Below the pieces are notes generated by a model. It saw only the letters and a program-made list of their open reading frames with translations, did no database searches and was not told the origin of the DNA. The position numbers and the translations under genes were made by a program. A DNA stretch of 10,123 nucleotides from Phycisphaerales bacterium (lineage in GTDB: Bacteria; Planctomycetota; Phycisphaerae; Phycisphaerales; Phycisphaeraceae). The stretch is from positions 1-10,123 of the forward strand of contig JAAUTM010000023.1 in assembly GCA_012031455.1 (NCBI GenBank), given 5' to 3'. This document shows positions 2,539-10,123 of this stretch, in pieces. How positions within the stretch are numbered: the first letter of the stretch is position 1; each line of letters begins with the position of its first letter.

Positions 2539-2788
2539 GGGGGTGCCAGACTATCCGAGATGCGAACGATTTGCCAGCCGATGATGAATCACCCTCGTTC
2601 CTGGCACCCAGTCCCATCACTATCGTCAATTGCTGCTGTAGCACTCAGCGGGTGTTTCCATCTATGGCCAACCGGGATCCGCGACATTTCACCCAGGGTG
2701 CGTCCTTAACCCCTGTAGCGATTCTGACGATGATGATGATGAGGTAAGCCTGATCTTCAGGGTGTCGGTCCAGACAGGGAGTGCGCTG

Positions 2789-3713
2789 ATGGTTCAGAGG
2801 GTGATAACCTGCAATCCGAAGGTGTCGGTGGTGATGCCGATTTACAACACCCGTGCCTATCTGGCCCAGGCAATTGCCAGCATCCGCGCCCAGACCTTCA
2901 CCGATTTCGAGCTGTTGCTGGTCGATGATGGCTCCACCGATGATTCGTTGCAGATCGCTCAGGATTGCGCTGCCGCAGACCCTCGTTTGCGGGTCCTGGC
3001 TTTTCCTCATCAGGGTTACCGAAGCATCAACCTTGCGGTGGAAGAGGCCCAGGCACCTTTGCTGGCTCGGATGGATTCTGATGACACCTGCATGCCGCAG
3101 CGCCTGGCACTGCAATACCAATACATGAACGATCACCCCGAATGTGTTGCAGTCGGCACATGGCTGGAAAAAACCGACCCCTTCGGCAGCCCCTGCGGTT
3201 TGCAGACCCCGATCACCGAACATGATGAAATTGATCGGCTGCTTTTGGAAGGCAATGCTTCGGGAATCATCAACGGCACAACGATGTTTCGCCGTGATGT
3301 CTGGCTGAGCATCGGCGGCATCGACACCCGTTACGGCTTCGCCGAGGACGTGGATTATTTTACGCCTGGCTGAGCAAGGCCGACTGGCCAACATCCCGCA
3401 GGTGCTTTACCGCTATCGTCGGCATCTGGGCAGCAGCTGCTACAACCAGTTCGACACCATGCTGGGCAACATTGAAAACGTCCTTTGCCAGACCTGGCAA
3501 CGACGCGGATTGCATGGGCAACCGAACCTCGACATCGTACGCCAGCGGCTATCACAACCGATGTCGCAGGCGGACATTTGCCGAAGCTGGGCCTGTCACG
3601 CCCTGGAACAGAACAATCGCAATCTGGCCCGGTATCACGCCTGGCAGGCAATTAAACGTGAACCGCTGGCCATGCAATCGTGGAAGGTGGCTTATTGGAG
3701 CCTCGCGGCATGA
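2789..3713 (+). CDS. GT2 family glycosyltransferase, frameshifted
   Basis: A GT-A fold transferase that would move a sugar from a nucleotide-sugar to a glycan or lipid-linked acceptor on the cytoplasmic side. Near the start are VSVVMPIYNTRAYLAQAI and FELLLVDDGSTDDS (nucleotide-binding half), then LARMDSDDTCMPQRL with the metal-binding DxD-type acids. GIINGTTMFRR and GFAEDVDYF mark the acceptor/catalytic half. The frame breaks in the T-run at 3358-3361 and resumes as LRLAEQGRLANIPQVLYRYR, a textbook GT2 C-terminal block, to the TGA at 3711-3713. Dropping one T gives about 307 residues, normal for the family. I use the ATG at 2789; a GTG at 2762 is an alternative. The tail (residues about 230-307) is helical and lacks membrane spans. 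Its stop overlaps the next gene's ATG, so the two are likely translationally coupled. Confidence 0.88.
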
Positions 3714-4681
3714 GTGAGCCACAGGCACAACTTCATCATCAACAACCACATCAACAGGGCTGCGATGTCCCGGTTCATGGGAAGTTGCCGATTTCCGTGG
3801 TGCTGGCGTTCCGCAATGAAAAGGCGATGTTGCAAGAGTGCCTGCCAAGGCTGTCATTTTGTTCGCAACTGATTTTGATCGACATGCAAAGCACCGATGG
3901 TTCACGGGAAGTGGCCCAGCGCTTTACCCATGAGATTTACGACTGGCCAGCCGAGCCGATTGCCGACCCGGCCCGTGCCTGGGCGATGCAGCATGTAACT
4001 GAGCCTTGGATGCTCAAGGTGGACCCTGATGAACAGTTCCCTGAGGCACTGGTGGGGGAAATTGCTGCAGCCTTGAAGCAATATCCGGAGGCCGGGGGTT
4101 TTCGCCTGCCGATGCGTTATTACTTTAAGCGCAAAATACTCACCGGCACCGTGTGGGGCAGTGCCACGATGACCACGCTGGCATTGTTGCACCGTGAGCG
4201 CGGACGATTATTACCCTGGTGCAACCGTGTGACAGAAGTATTGCCCGGGTTCGCGACGGTGAGCCTGCCCAACACCGATGAAAATCACATTCGCCATCTG
4301 TGGTGCGATTCATATCGTGACTTGGCGCATAAACACCTGATCCGCTACCCGCGCAAGGACGCGCAGCGCATGCTTGATGAAGCCAGGCCCTTCCGCTGGC
4401 GAACCCTGCTGGGCGAAGCAGTCGGGTCGTTCTGGAACAGCTATCGACACTTGGATGGCTGGCGACTGGGGCTGCGAGGCCTGCTGCTGAGCCTGATTTA
4501 TGGGGCCTACCACTTCATGATGCACTGGCATCTGCGCCGACTCACCAAGCAAATCACGAGCTTGGGGTTAAATCCCCCAGGGGTGGCAATAAGTAACAAA
4601 CCTTCATCGGCTGCGCCGGGGCTTGAGAATCATGCATCTGCTGCAACCCCCACCTTTCCTTGGCAAAGAGATGCAGCGTGA
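3710..4681 (+). CDS. WaaE/KdtX-like GT2 glycosyltransferase
   Basis: This is an intact 323-residue GT2 enzyme of the WaaE-like type, the group that includes LPS-core glucosyltransferases. The motifs are ISVVLAFRNEKAMLQECL (residues about 23-40), LILIDMQSTDGSREVAQ, and the metal-binding DPDEQF within WMLKVDPDEQFPEALVGEI. GGFRLPMRYYFKRKILTG follows, as in this subgroup. A hydrophobic stretch near residues 250-275 (LRGLLLSLIYGAYHFMMHW) probably anchors it to the membrane. The start at 3710 is favoured by GGAG at 3697-3700 and by the ATGA overlap with the preceding gene. The first 20 residues are low-complexity and Gln/His-rich, and the last 40 are Pro/Ala/Ser-rich. Sugar donor and acceptor cannot be read from the sequence. 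Confidence 0.88.
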   Translation: MSEPQAQLHHQQPHQQGCDVPVHGKLPISVVLAFRNEKAMLQECLPRLSFCSQLILIDMQSTDGSREVAQRFTHEIYDWPAEPIADPARAWAMQHVTEPWMLKVDPDEQFPEALVGEIAAALKQYPEAGGFRLPMRYYFKRKILTGTVWGSATMTTLALLHRERGRLLPWCNRVTEVLPGFATVSLPNTDENHIRHLWCDSYRDLAHKHLIRYPRKDAQRMLDEARPFRWRTLLGEAVGSFWNSYRHLDGWRLGLRGLLLSLIYGAYHFMMHWHLRRLTKQITSLGLNPPGVAISNKPSSAAPGLENHASAATPTFPWQRDAA

Positions 4682-5979
4682 ACAATTCACAGCAACATAC
4701 GGCTGATTCGTTACCGAACGCGCACAGGCAATCATCAATGCGCTGGCAGAGTGTGGATGCGCTGCGTGGGGTGGCAGCATTGGCGGTGATGGTGTGTCAC
4801 GCCTGGGGCTGGTTCGTTCATGACAATCTGCAAGCTCAGGGCGGAGCGTGGTGGCTGGCATTTCCCGTTACCCTCGGCCATACAGGGGTACATTTGTTTC
4901 TGGTGTTGTCGGGCTTCTGTATTCACATGCGTTGGGCTCGCATGTCAGAGCAAACACCCGGTGTTCAGGTGCAATGGTGGGATTTCTGGAAAAGGCGTAT
5001 GGTGCGACTCTATCCACCTTACGTAGTGGCGTTGCTTGCATCGCTGGCGTTGTCGGTGCTGATTGAGATGTGGCTCAATAGCGACTACACATGGTCGGGG
5101 ATGCAGGCTCAGCAGGCCATGCTGCCTTGGGACTTGCTGACCCATTTGCTGATGGTTCACCTTTTTTTCAGTGCTTTTGCGTTTGGGGGTGGGAACGGAG
5201 TTTTCTGGACGCTGGCCCTGGAAGAACATTTGTATGTGCTATATCAGCCGTTTTTATGGTTGCGCCAAAGGCTGGGGTTAACCGGCACCTTGATGGTGGT
5301 GGGAGGCGTGTGCCTGGTTTGGCGCAGTGTTTGCGTGATGTGGCTCAAGGCCCCGCCGGTCAATGTGGCTGTGCCTCAAGGCTGGTCAGCGCAGGCGATG
5401 TTATGGATGTGTCAGGCACCGGCCCGCTGGCTGGAATGGTGTCTGGGAGCGGTGGCTGCCGAGTGGGTGCTCAGTCGAAGGCAGCATCCAGTGATACTGA
5501 CCCACCCGCTGACCGCCATCGGTTTGCTGGTGGCTGCAGTTTTGGCAAATCAATATCCCTATGCTTGGATTGTCAACGACATTGTGTGGGGCCTGGGATT
5601 TTTTGTTCTGCTCAATGCGCTGGTGATGAGTGAAAATCAGGCCACGAACCAATCCAAACACCACACACTCATCCTTAAGAAAGGGATTGGTTGGCTTACG
5701 GCCTGCGGTATCGGTTCCTATTCCATTTACCTGGTTCACCTTCCTGTATTGCAAACATCACGATATGTGGGTTATCACCTTGGCTTGCAAAATCAGGATT
5801 GGGGCATGGCTCTGCTCATGCTCCCGGCGATGGGGGCGGCATTGTTACTCGCCTGGTTGTTTCATCACGGCATCGAAAAACGCTTTATGCACCCACACCA
5901 ACACGCTCCCAAACAACAAACCGCCGAACCCATTCGGATAAGCGGTCCGATAAGCAACCCTGAGCGTTTGGCAGCTTGA
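4678..5979 (+). CDS. Acyltransferase family 3 membrane protein
   Basis: An integral membrane O-acyltransferase (OafA/YrhL-type, PF01757) that would acetylate or otherwise acylate a surface polysaccharide. It is intact, 433 residues. Near the start is SVDALRGVAALAVMVCHAWG, with the LRG and the conserved histidine of the first membrane helix. GVHLFLVLSGFCIHMR (helix 2), the basic loop FWKRRMVRLYPPYVVA (the family RxxRIxP-like element) and FWTLALEEHLYVLYQ (the SLxxEhxFY-like element) follow in the usual order. About ten hydrophobic segments run to residue 405. The tail is polar and His/Gln-rich. The GTG start at 4678 overlaps the upstream TGA (GTGA). A TTG at 4660 and an ATG at 4738 are alternatives. 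It closes a three-gene coupled unit with two glycosyltransferases, which fits decoration of their product. The 236 bases after it hold no gene or clear signal. Confidence 0.92.
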   Translation: MNNSQQHTADSLPNAHRQSSMRWQSVDALRGVAALAVMVCHAWGWFVHDNLQAQGGAWWLAFPVTLGHTGVHLFLVLSGFCIHMRWARMSEQTPGVQVQWWDFWKRRMVRLYPPYVVALLASLALSVLIEMWLNSDYTWSGMQAQQAMLPWDLLTHLLMVHLFFSAFAFGGGNGVFWTLALEEHLYVLYQPFLWLRQRLGLTGTLMVVGGVCLVWRSVCVMWLKAPPVNVAVPQGWSAQAMLWMCQAPARWLEWCLGAVAAEWVLSRRQHPVILTHPLTAIGLLVAAVLANQYPYAWIVNDIVWGLGFFVLLNALVMSENQATNQSKHHTLILKKGIGWLTACGIGSYSIYLVHLPVLQTSRYVGYHLGLQNQDWGMALLMLPAMGAALLLAWLFHHGIEKRFMHPHQHAPKQQTAEPIRISGPISNPERLAA

Positions 5980-6202
5980 GTTTTATCCTTCAACGGCTCC
6001 TAACCACATGCATTACAACTAACTTCCGGTGTGTTGCAGTACACGGTTTGCAGAGGTGGATCAATCTACCAAGTCGTGCCTGACTAAGTCCATTGATTCC
6101 TAAAGATGACATTGTGGTTTATTCCATCTTTAACACTCATATCGGGTGGGTAAACAGTCGATGAGAGGATTGTCGGACAATGCAGTGCCGTGGCACACCT
6201 AT

Positions 6203-6218
6203 GGAGGAGCCGTCCATG
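6203..6218 (+). promoter_or_regulatory. Ribosome binding site fixing the GT2 start
   Basis: GGAGGAG at 6203-6209 lies 6 bases before the ATG at 6216. It overlaps an in-frame ATG at 6201, which therefore cannot use it, so 6216 is the likely start. Confidence 0.7.
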
Positions 6219-7138
6219 ATCCAGCCGCGCATCACGATCATCACCCCCTGTCGCAATCAGGATCGCTACATCGAACAAGCTCTCTGCAGTGTGCTTGATC
6301 AAGGGTATGGCAACCTCGAATACATCGTCATTGATGCCATGTCCGACGATCGCAGCGCTCAGGTCATTGAGCTTTATCGCCACCGCATCAAGCACTTCAT
6401 CCGTCAATCCGACAACGGCCCAGCCGAAGCACTTAATCAGGCTCTCTCCCGTGCCACCGGGGACATCATCGGCATCCTCTATGCCGACGATCTGTACCTC
6501 CCGGGACCCTGGACCTCATCAGCAGGCAGATGGCCACCACGCAACCCGCATGGATGGTGGGGCGATGTCTGCGCATCGGTGACAATGATCAGATGCTCGG
6601 CTTGCTCGAACCCCAACAGCACCTGGACCTCACCTCCTATTTGATGCACGATTGTGAGCCCTTGCCCACCATCGCCAGTTTCTACCGTCGTGAACTTTTT
6701 CAGCGCTACGGGATGTTCGACAGTCAGTTGCAATATGCCTTTGATTATGAGTTCGTCTGCCGCCTGCTGGCCGGTGGCCAGTCCCCTGTGCAGATGCTTC
6801 ACCTGGCCTCCGCTCAGCGTGAACACAACGAAAGCCGCAGTGCGACTCACCCGGTGGACATGGGTCTGGAATACATCGCAGCCGCCCGACGTTACGCAGA
6901 TCAACTGCCCCTGCCTCAGCGTGTAAAACTATGGCGCAACTGTGATCAGCGCCAGCGCATCTACGCCCTGGCACAGGCTGAAATGCAAGGCGATCAGGGA
7001 CGCGGCTACCTCTGGCAGCAACTGCTCTATCGTCCCTGGTGGCTGGTCAACGGGAGCCTGCGGCAAATGCTGGTGCGTGGCGGACGCATCCCCACAGCCC
7101 TGGATCATCCAGAACAATCGCTACGTCAAGCCGCCTAG
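6216..7138 (+). CDS. GT2 family glycosyltransferase, frameshifted
   Basis: A second GT-A fold nucleotide-sugar transferase. It opens MIQPRITIITPCRNQDRYIE, then YGNLEYIVIDAMSDDRS and FIRQSDNGPAEALNQALSRA (the typical SD.G..DAlNkG-like GT2 block). ATGDIIGILYADDLYLPG carries the DD metal-binding pair. The frame breaks at GGG/A/CCC (6503-6509). One missing base (G-run of three read as four) gives LPGTLDLISRQMATTQPAWM and continues through IASFYRRELFQRYGMFDSQL and FDYEFVCRLLAGG to the TAG at 7136-7138. The corrected protein has 307 residues, a normal length. The DYEFxxRL block is the usual C-terminal GT2 signature. The 236-base gap upstream suggests its own promoter rather than coupling to the acyltransferase gene. 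Donor and acceptor are unknown. Confidence 0.88.
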
Positions 7139-7155
7139 GTGGAACTCGTCCACCT
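7137..7155 (+). terminator. Hairpin overlapping the GT2 stop codon
   Basis: AGGTGGA (7137-7143) and TCCACCT (7149-7155) form a perfect 7-bp stem with a 5-base loop. The stem begins within the TAG stop of the upstream gene. No T-run follows, as with the hairpin at 1947, so it is a candidate terminator only. Confidence 0.4.
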
Positions 7156-7308
7156 CATAAACCCTATGAACTGTAATTTCAGAAGACTCCTTTCACTTAA
7201 GCATTGATTGTAATGTCACAAACCAGCCGATGTTCGAGTTGTATGGATTGTTTAAGTCCCTGCCCCCTGGGGATGTTTCGTTGTACCGGGGTCGCTCTGT
7301 TTTGGTGT

Positions 7309-7315
7309 GAGGTGG
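7309..7315 (+). promoter_or_regulatory. Ribosome binding site of the GT4 gene
   Basis: GAGGTGG lies 6 bases before the ATG at 7322. It fixes the start of a gene whose first frame is only about 16 codons long before a frameshift. Confidence 0.6.
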
Positions 7316-7321
7316 TATTTC

Positions 7322-8472
7322 ATGCGTATCGCTCTGGATGCACGCCCGATTTTCAGCCCCCGGCGCAGGGCATCGGCAAGTCATTGCTGGCGCTCTACCA
7401 GCATGTGGCTTACTTGCGTCCGCATTGGGAGATCATCGCCTACCACCGCATGCCCGGCTCCGTCCAGCCACCCATCCTCGCCCCAACACTTTTCAACCCC
7501 GCTTCATGGAGATGCCCGGTGACCGCTGGAACGCATGGGAAGGCCTGCGTCTTCCAATCACCGCCTGGACCCGTGGCGTGGACCTTCTGCATTGCCCTGC
7601 CAACACCTGCCCGCGCTGGGCCATGCTCCCCACCATCGTCACCGTCCACGACATCATCCCGCTCGATGAATCACAATATTATCCCCCTGAAGAAGTGCAG
7701 CGTTTTGAAAAGGGTGTCCGCACCGCCTGCCAGAACGCCTGGATCATGTGCCCCTCGCAATACACCAAGGATCGCCTGGTGGATCGTTTCAAGACCGACC
7801 CTCGCCGCATTGTGGTCAATCCCTGGGCATCTGGCACGGGTGTGAAACTGGTCGAACCCATGCGGGCGCAGAAGGTGATGAACCGTTATGGCATCGCTCC
7901 GCCTTTCGTTCTGCATCTGGGGGCATCGGACCCTCGTAAAAACACCCGCAGTGTCATCGATGCCTGGGCCATGATCGACAAAGCTGTGCGTGGTTCGTGG
8001 GAGCTGGTCGTGGTCGGGCTCAATGATGAAACTCGCAGTCAGCTTATGTCCGCAGTGGAACGCCTGGGTCTGGAAGCTCATGTGCATCTTCTGGGTTACC
8101 GTGAAGGAAGATGAGCTGTCCGCCCTGATGACCGCTGCGGAGGTGCTGGCTTATCCGAGCCTGTCGGAGGGCTTTGGTCTGCCCGTGCTGGATGCTTTTG
8201 CCACCGATACAGCCGTGCTCGCTGCCAATGCCAGCAGCATTCCGGAAGTGGCGGGGGATGCAGCCGTGCTGGTGGACCCGGGGGACCGCTGTGCAGTGGC
8301 ACGGGGACTGACCAAGCTGTTGCGTGACAAACGTCTGCGGGAAACATTGGTGGAGAAAGGCCGGGCACGATTGGAACAATTCACCTGGCAGGCCACCGCC
8401 GCCCGTTTTGTACAAACCCTCGAACGTATCCAAGCCGGTGTGCAGAGCCGCCGGGATCAGGTCGCTGCGTAA
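7322..8472 (+). CDS. GT4 family glycosyltransferase (GT-B fold), frameshifted
   Basis: A retaining GT-B fold transferase (Glycos_transf_1, PF00534 type) of the mannosyl/rhamnosyl-like group. It reads across three frames: MRIALDARPIFSPRRR; GIGKSLLALYQHVAYLRPHW to LAP; NTFQPRFMEMPGDRWNAWEG, GVDLLHCPANTCP, VTVHDIIPLDE, FVLHLGASDPRKNTRSVIDA, HVHLLGYRE; then EDELSALMTAAEVLAYPSLS, EGFGLPVLDAF and a TAA at 8470-8472. The breaks match one base lost in GGG 7368-7370, one lost in CCCC 7481-7484, and one gained in GG 8106-8107. Corrected, it is 383 residues, a normal length. HDIIPLD, the PRKN donor-site loop and the EGFGLP loop are all present. In the E-x7-E motif the second acid is Asp. Upstream (7139-7308) I see no gene. 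It ends the polysaccharide block, 13 bases before the RAYT element. Confidence 0.92.
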
Positions 8473-8485
8473 TCGCGCACCAAAT

Positions 8486-8508
8486 AAAGGTGTCAGGATG
8501 AATTATTT
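8486..8508 (+). repeat. Left RAYT repeat
   Basis: 23 bases with core AAAGGTGTCAGGATGAATTA. It is a perfect inverted match to 9323-9345 and begins 14 bases after the GT4 stop. It ends in the TT of the putative -35 box of the transposase promoter. Confidence 0.85.
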
Positions 8509-8536
8509 TGACGGTTGGGACTCGACACGTTAATCT
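8508..8536 (+). promoter_or_regulatory. Putative sigma-70-like promoter of the transposase
   Basis: TTGACG (8508-8513) and TAATCT (8531-8536) are separated by 17 bases. The -10 box ends 7 bases before the ATG at 8544, where no Shine-Dalgarno is visible. A transcript from this promoter would be nearly or fully leaderless. Confidence 0.4.
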
Positions 8537-8543
8537 GCTGCAC

Positions 8544-9244
8544 ATGGGAAGAGCATTGCGCCAATCAGCCGGTGGAGTGGTGTACCACGTTCTGAATCGC
8601 CGAGTGCTTCGGCTGGGGTTGTTTGAAGATGAGGGGGATTACCTGGCTTTTGTCCGCGTGCTGGCCGAGGCGTTGCAACGCAAGGATGCCCCCGAACTTT
8701 TTGCCTATTGCCTGATGCCCAACCACTGGCACCTGCTGCTGCGGCCTGGCAAGGACGGGGATCTGTCACGCTGGATGCAGTGGCTGACCGTCACCCACAC
8801 CCATCGCTGGCATCAGCACCATCACACCTTCGGCACCGGGCCTGTCTATCAGGGTCGGTTCAAAGGCTTCCCAGTTCAGGCCGATGACCACTTTCTGATC
8901 GCTGCCCGTTATGTGGAACGCAATCCGCTGCGTGCGGGCCTGGTTGAAGGGGCAGAGGCCTGGCGCTGGTCAAGCCTGGGACTGATGAACCGCACGGTCA
9001 GTGACCGGCGGAACTGGAACTTCGGCAACGCTTGTCGGATTGGCCGGTGGACCGCCCGCGGAACTGGCGGCAACGGGTGAATCAGGCGGAGTCGCAGGAG
9101 GAGTTGGTATTGCTGCGGCGCTGCTCGGTACGTGGCCAGCCGTTGGGCCAGGAGTCATGGATACACCGGATCGCCAGTAAAATGGGCTTGCTCAGCACCC
9201 TCCGTCCCCGTGGCCGACCCAGGCTCGAAAATAATTCAACCTGA
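8544..9244 (+). CDS. REP-associated tyrosine transposase (RAYT), frameshifted
   Basis: A Y1 single-strand transposase of the IS200/RAYT group (PF01797), which nicks and moves repeat-bounded hairpin elements. It opens MGRALRQSAGGVVYHVLNRR, a standard RAYT N-terminus. The HUH metal-binding pair is in FAYCLMPNHWHLLLRP near residue 60. GPVYQGRFKGFPVQADDHF and YVERNPLRAGLVEGAEAWRW (with the WSS that follows) are family signatures. The frame breaks near 9006-9007, where restoring one G gives DRAELELRQRLSDWPVDRPR and the typical tail ending LRPRGRPR. The corrected length is 233 residues, normal for the group. I choose ATG 8544 over the TTG at 8508 because the family starts there. The last four codons and TGA lie inside the first downstream repeat. 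Confidence 0.93.
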
Positions 9245-9252
9245 CACCTTTT
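9229..9252 (-). repeat. Downstream RAYT repeat, copy a
   Basis: This is the same 24-base pattern as the outer right repeat, with A for T at one position (TTCAACCTGACACC against TTCATCCTGACACC). It contains the transposase stop codon at 9242-9244. Confidence 0.8.
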
Positions 9253-9257
9253 CTTTC

Positions 9258-9277
9258 TCAACCTGACACCTTTTCTT
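9258..9277 (-). repeat. Downstream RAYT repeat, copy b
   Basis: These 20 bases match 9236-9255 exactly, forming a 22-base-period tandem pair with copy a. It lacks the A/T-rich AAATAAT end found in the other copies. Confidence 0.75.
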
Positions 9278-9322
9278 GACTTATGGGCGACTCAACTTTG
9301 GCTTGTGAAGGGCGGGCTGGGG

Positions 9323-9345
9323 AAATAATTCATCCTGACACCTTT
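9323..9345 (-). repeat. Outer right RAYT repeat
   Basis: Exact reverse complement of 8486-8508. It contains the last codons (K-V-S-G) and TGA of the minus-strand viperin gene at 9330-9344. Confidence 0.85.
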
Positions 9346-10123
9346 TCCTGCTCAGCTGTAACCTTATCCCAGTTGTAATTCCCCCCACGCTCTTTGAAGC
9401 GTGGCAAGGATACACTGACCTGTTGGAGAGCTAGCTCAATTCCTATCTCATGAATTGATTTGCTGTATGTATGTCGACCTTTGGTATTGTCAAATAACCG
9501 ACCTGCAGGGTCTATCATGAGATAGGAGCCTGTCATCAGTTCGTTGTTCTCTGCCACAATGCTAATACTAGGCAAGCTTTACATGTTTATTAACATAGTT
9601 CTGGAACTGAGCGTCAGATACTGCCCAAGATTGCGGTTGAGAATCATTCTGGCCCTCTATTCGTAGTGCCTGAAAATCTTCAGTCTCTCAGGCAGCACCT
9701 CCAGTACGAAAGCGGACATATCTTCCTGCCAGTTGAATGCTGATACGACGGTGTTCATCTTGAGTCGCAATCCAGCATTGCGTATAAGTGAAATACGTTC
9801 TAGGTATTCCTCAGCACCGAACGCAAGACGTCCAGGACCAATTCTGCCTGATAGCGCATTTGTTTCAGGGATAATGCTGTCAATACTCAATACGAACCAG
9901 TGTAATCCTGAAAGATCTCTGAGTAGTTGTTCATTAAGTGTCAGGCCATTACTCACGACCATAGTGGTCATGCCGAGATTGCTGGCTTCAGCAGTCAATG
10001 ACGAAAGCCATGGGCACAAAGTTGGTTCACCCCGACAAATGAAATTTTACGTACCCCGGCGTCTGCGAGTGCCCGAACACATTTAAAGGTGGTTGCAATC
10101 TCTGATACCGAGTGGGCTTTGTT
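9330..10123 (-). CDS. pVip: Prokaryotic viperin (pVip), radical-SAM antiviral enzyme, 5' partial, frameshifted
   Basis: Viperins dehydrate nucleoside triphosphates to 3'-deoxy-3',4'-didehydro forms that block phage RNA synthesis. About 264 codons are present; the CxxxCxxC iron-sulfur motif would lie past the right edge. In order: ALADAGVRKISFVG joined to GEPTLCPWL (GGE, SAM-binding), TTMVVSNGLTLNEQL, FVLSIDS, GLRLKMNTVVSAFNWQEDM, PERLKIF joined to QALRIEGQNDSQPQSW, FQNYVNKHV joined to LPSISIVAENNELMTGSYLM, IDPAGRLFDNTKGR, then FKERGGNYNWDK. The last blocks parallel human viperin's C-terminal SYLILD and KRGGKYIWSK. Breaks fit one base lost in CCCC 10030-10033, one lost in AAAA 9673-9676, and one gained in TTT 9578-9580. 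PxRLK replaces the usual PxRWK. GC is about 40%, below its neighbours, suggesting transfer. The stop lies inside a RAYT repeat. The alternative, a MoaA-like enzyme, fits the C-terminal third poorly. Confidence 0.9.

Follow-up and report, generated by a model that had tools for sequence, protein, structure and literature searches.

Does the right-hand end of this contig carry a gene for viperin and, if so, was the gene broken in the living cell or only in its assembled sequence? Viperins are known to protect bacteria from phages; the prokaryotic members are called pVips (also SAND), and the founding pVip paper is said to be that of Bernheim et al. in 2021. The window considered here is the whole stretch of DNA that was analysed, 10,123 nucleotides in length. 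An earlier note on it had claimed that three small indels on the minus strand conceal a single viperin at the contig end, one that could be told from MoaA-type radical-SAM proteins by its C-terminal RGGxYxW block. The explanation we hold with good confidence is that the window ends in a partial pVip gene; in the organism this gene is most likely unbroken, its three breaks being errors of the contig.

Reconstruction of the viperin gene

Frame translation of positions 9330 to 10123 on the minus strand yielded four reading-frame pieces of one viperin-family protein of 264 residues. The pieces are spread over three frames, and the frame changes fall near 10031, 9672, and 9576, which bears out the proposal of one protein across three small breaks:

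10031..10123, minus strand: viperin piece 1, 31 aa, cut by the contig end; from frame translation, its own matches, and tblastn with the relatives P0001 and P0002
9672..10031, minus strand: viperin piece 2, 120 aa, GEPT to PERLKIF; nearly all within the open reading frame (ORF) at 9657-10019
9577..9672, minus strand: viperin piece 3, 32 aa, which holds the EGQND block; from frame translation and its own matches to relatives
9330..9575, minus strand: viperin piece 4, 81 aa, which carries the SYLMIDPAGR and RGGNYNW blocks as well as the stop codon; from PADLOC, NF038283, and the PDB

Every motif quoted in the earlier note was found in the translation, on the minus strand and in the order given. 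The GGEP block, present in 110 of 110 other viperins compared, depends on a join: GEP lies in piece 2 and the first G comes from piece 1, such that the GG of GGEPT is created across the first join. The C-terminal RGGxYxW block is present in piece 4 and aligns with solved viperins. By comparison with P0001, about 40 N-terminal residues fall past the contig end, among them the CxxxCxxC motif, which is present in both of the closest relatives, P0001 and P0002.

Two listed ORFs lie inside the viperin stretch, one of 120 aa (9657-10019) and one of 81 aa (9330-9575). Even without joining the pieces, the viperin signal is more than chance. The 120-aa ORF matched the PADLOC pVip model at 8.7e-30, the NCBIfam model NF038283 at 3.9e-30 (105 bits; cut-off 180), and PDB viperins at 2e-7 or weaker; Pfam returned a sub-threshold radical-SAM match for it. 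The 81-aa ORF matched the PADLOC viperin-kinase model at 7.5e-23, NF038283 at 5.8e-16 (58.5 bits), and PDB viperins (best 9.4e-11), and had no match in Pfam. Taken alone at E<=1e-3, piece 1 matched five of the 30 best relatives (best 37.5 bits) and piece 3 matched 18 of them (best 66.0 bits); shuffle controls (100 each) reached maxima of 24.4 and 26.9 bits, respectively. When tblastn was run against the raw DNA, four of the 30 relatives recovered piece 1 at E<0.01, and the reversed-sequence control gave 11 matches at E<=1 across the 30 queries. Single-frame annotation had been expected to miss the gene, which holds in part: naming by the NF038283 cut-off does miss it, because both ORFs score under 180 bits, whereas an E-value search with the PADLOC models sees the fragments.

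Once the indels were corrected, the joined peptide scored 233.7 bits against NF038283, passing its cut-off, and covered model positions 39 to 280 of 281. The best PADLOC model was the pVip without kinase (226.5 bits, 8.9e-68), ahead of the viperin-kinase fusion (221 bits) and the kinase-associated pVip (194.9 bits). In a search of PDB sequences, nine viperins came first (6.3e-33 to 2e-28), followed by two cytosylglucuronate decarboxylases at about 5e-5.

A possible kinase beyond the contig end

The earlier note had added that a nucleotide kinase, a frequent neighbor of pVips, could here lie only beyond the right edge. Among related loci a kinase neighbor is optional: 29 of 80 carry a kinase, comprising 12 fused within the viperin ORF, 11 of the fused type but adjacent (two of them weak, at about 5e-6), and six deoxynucleoside kinases beside the viperin, these six coming from a two-query search. 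Many of the loci are short, which makes the absence of a kinase from the remainder weak evidence. The count excludes loci L087 and L088: both were brought in by the MoaA search and repeat viperins already represented by L047 and L060. All 23 fused-type cases belong to Bacteroidota, as judged by record title or tree label.

A kinase-linked pVip, with the nucleotide kinase encoded just past the contig end, is a sub-case of our favored explanation, and the frequency of kinases among related loci keeps it possible, if on balance doubtful. Against it, the best PADLOC model was the one without kinase, though its margin over the fusion model was small; the restriction of fused-type cases to Bacteroidota also counts against it, and the viperin here has no kinase fused at its C-terminus. 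Pfam scans of 17 of the 85 listed ORFs returned no kinase family; all lie on this contig, from which the 5' side of the viperin gene is missing. PMC10865869 links pVip genes with HicA and RelE genes; both were absent among the Pfam matches of the same 17 ORFs, on a contig that stops short of the viperin 5' side.

Sequencing errors or decay

Sequencing errors probably account for the frame breaks in the viperin gene, given that purE and at least one glycosyltransferase of this contig are broken as well. The purE gene (AIR carboxylase), which runs for 478 bases from about 628 to its stop codon at 1103-1105, shows three frame changes by eye (622, 620, 621, 620), and Pfam confirmed the opening two pieces, at profile positions 1-52 and 50-104. 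The glycosyltransferase is split over ORFs 7338-8114 and 7990-8472, which match adjoining stretches of the PF00534 profile (15-82 and 75-171). By eye, two family-2 glycosyltransferases and a transposase likewise carry on into a second frame, their second halves being without Pfam confirmation. Errors along the contig must be uneven, since ORFs 1173-1865, 3680-4681, and 4660-5979 are open. Close to every viperin join there are short runs (three or four) of a single base, observed without a control; they suit read error but prove nothing.

The breaks could instead be real mutations in a decayed viperin pseudogene, perhaps following insertion of a Y1-transposase element at its 3' end:

8486..8508, minus strand: left inverted repeat of the Y1-transposase element, the perfect complement of 9323-9345
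8508..9244, plus strand: IS200-like (Y1) transposase gene, probably in two frames (8508-9080, then 9032-9244)
9323..9345, plus strand: right inverted repeat of the element, overlapping the last codons and stop of the viperin gene; from the repeat search

The transposase, which we take to be of the RAYT type, matched PF01797 at 2.9e-10 in ORF 8508-9080; ORF 9032-9244 had no Pfam match and was recognized as its continuation by eye. The 23-base inverted repeats are perfect, and a pattern search put the number expected at a mean of 0.00 in 200 shuffles; a further copy with one mismatch lies at 9229-9251. The viperin frame takes its last codons from the right end of the element (8486-9345), just after the last conserved block. 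Matches to the transposase were found in 14 plasmid records, all below 60% identity, and the repeat was present in none of the 80 viperin-related loci in which it was sought.

Such decay would account for a mobile element that terminates within the last viperin codons, for three breaks inside about 455 bases, and for the alteration of an invariant tryptophan. We nevertheless judge it distinctly unlikely. The broken purE and glycosyltransferase genes fit errors along the whole contig, the element is located past the last conserved viperin block, and nearly all conserved columns are kept. Across 110 other viperins, 58 columns are at least 95% conserved; eight of these fall in the missing N-terminal part, and of the 50 covered here the window protein retains 48. 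The two exceptions are residue 148 in piece 2, a leucine in place of the tryptophan found in 110 of 110 viperins compared, and residue 210, a leucine where 107 have phenylalanine and three have valine. Tyr201 aligns with the tyrosine of the SYLIL motif in mouse viperin (5vsl), presumably Tyr302, which is thought to be catalytic; a tyrosine occupies this position in 109 of the 110 others.

The viperin stretch at 9346-10123 also differs from the remaining contig in composition. Its G+C content is 46.3%, whereas each of 172 overlapping segments of equal length from elsewhere on the contig is higher (49.6-60.8%, mean 56.7%), a difference consistent with acquisition by transfer. Elsewhere in the window, positions 2762-8472 hold a cluster of one acyltransferase and four glycosyltransferases; three of the latter are divided between frames, in two cases on a reading by eye alone. 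For the glycosyltransferase at 3680-4681, 18 relatives besides itself were found, including one at 40% identity from Poriferisphaera corsica (Phycisphaerae, Planctomycetota). The product of the ORF at 1173-1865, 230 aa long and of unknown function, may begin with a coiled coil; four relatives were found, one of them a 219-aa protein to which it is 98% identical over 95%. A search of the window against Rfam at the gathering threshold returned no match.

Relatives and phylogenetic placement

The window viperin had 1128 protein matches at E<=1e-3, and the best 120 were all at least 45% identical. Closest among the matches listed were P0001, 67% identical over 90% and located on a 2059-base JGI contig, and P0002 at 60%, followed by others at about 50%. 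In species genomes, 137 stretches encode viperin relatives, of which 80, with best segment identities of 39-50%, were retained; by record title they derive from Bacteroidota, Poribacteria, Chloroflexota, Myxococcota, Latescibacteria, and others. A viperin relative was found in 15 plasmid records, all below 60% identity, and there was no match between the window and plasmids at the DNA level. A phage-borne viperin was considered and is unsupported: tblastn gave no match in 50,697 phage records, and of the 39 pattern matches obtained in viral contigs, none encoded a relative.

A tree of 117 rows was built by a quick method with SH-aLRT support and MoaA as the outgroup, from 25 of the 120 listed proteins, all 80 loci, 5 of the 15 plasmid matches, and six MoaA sequences. 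The six MoaA rows were separated from the 111 viperin rows at a support of 100, with the window protein on the viperin side; the program warned that long branches, those of MoaA included, may yield false joins. The window protein, P0001, and P0002 formed a three-member clade at a support of 100, although the position of this trio among other pVips lacks resolution. The three genes might belong to a distinct pVip lineage of uncultured bacteria, one with a long stem and a particular substrate preference, in which the change at the invariant tryptophan of the window copy is real; we regard this as quite improbable.

The fold was modelled for P0001, the nearest intact relative, and thus tests the relative and not the window protein. 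The model, built from 40 sequences, had a pLDDT of 89.3 and a pTM of 0.88. Its best 30 PDB matches were viperins or viperin-like enzymes of mouse, Trichoderma virens, and Nematostella (TM-score by query 0.72-0.86); next came SuiB and SkfB at 0.57-0.64 and MoaA entries at 0.54-0.59. Family membership is shown by sequence and tree for the window protein, and by fold for its closest relative.

That the window protein is instead a MoaA-like or other radical-SAM enzyme is in practice ruled out: it matches the models for MoaA (TIGR02666, 36.9 bits) and PqqE (35.7 bits) weakly, by way of the shared radical-SAM core, yet these scores are far below the respective cut-offs (284.05 and 381.35) while the viperin cut-off is passed, and both the tree and the fold of P0001 stand against it. 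The distinction from MoaA drawn in the earlier note is upheld by the curated models, the PDB sequence matches, the MoaA-outgroup tree, and the modelled fold of P0001.

Predicted function

What is known of the family suggests how a pVip of this kind would act. The CxxxCxxC motif would bind a [4Fe-4S] cluster; with it, the enzyme would cleave SAM to form a 5'-deoxyadenosyl radical, and the radical would abstract the C4' hydrogen of a nucleoside triphosphate. The product would be a 3'-deoxy-3',4'-didehydro (ddh) nucleotide, which could stop RNA chains made by phage polymerases. The window protein may perform the same chemistry as known pVips; we infer its activity, the base of its substrate, its intactness in the cell, and its role in defense. 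In PMC10732462, PMC9642334, and PMC12926258, prokaryotic viperins are described as producing ddhCTP, ddhUTP, or ddhGTP and as inhibiting phage T7 RNA polymerase in E. coli. PMC9642334 further describes the CxxxCxxC cluster and proposes a conserved tyrosine as the donor of a proton and an electron, with another residue as the alternative. For Asgard viperins, PMC11291487 gives 9 of 48 as active against T7 when first tested, with codon optimization adding one more.

Comparison with known systems

The window gene is an ordinary pVip, partial and broken in sequence, of a family already known. It adds one partial member and two close relatives to a family that is well represented (1128 matches). 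Perhaps its wider meaning is that ORF calling and score cut-offs can under-count the defense genes of contig ends or error-rich assemblies, even as domain models still detect their fragments.

MoaA belongs to the same radical-SAM superfamily and has a common core, but is set apart from the window peptide by score and on the tree. With the animal and fungal viperins (RSAD2; PDB 6q2p, 5vsl, 7n7h, 9dfw, and 9dfn) the window peptide aligns over 239-255 residues, and the fold of P0001 matches theirs with TM-scores of up to 0.86; however, P0001 is only 29-33% identical to them, and the window peptide scored 111.7 bits against the animal viperin model TIGR04278, below its cut-off of 450. With the pVips themselves (NCBIfam NF038283, PADLOC PDLC02903) the window protein shares nearly the full length of the model, the conserved blocks, and the C-terminal RGGxYxW; it differs from them in its leucines at 148 and 210 and in a best segment identity of at most 50% to the 80 loci kept from species genomes.
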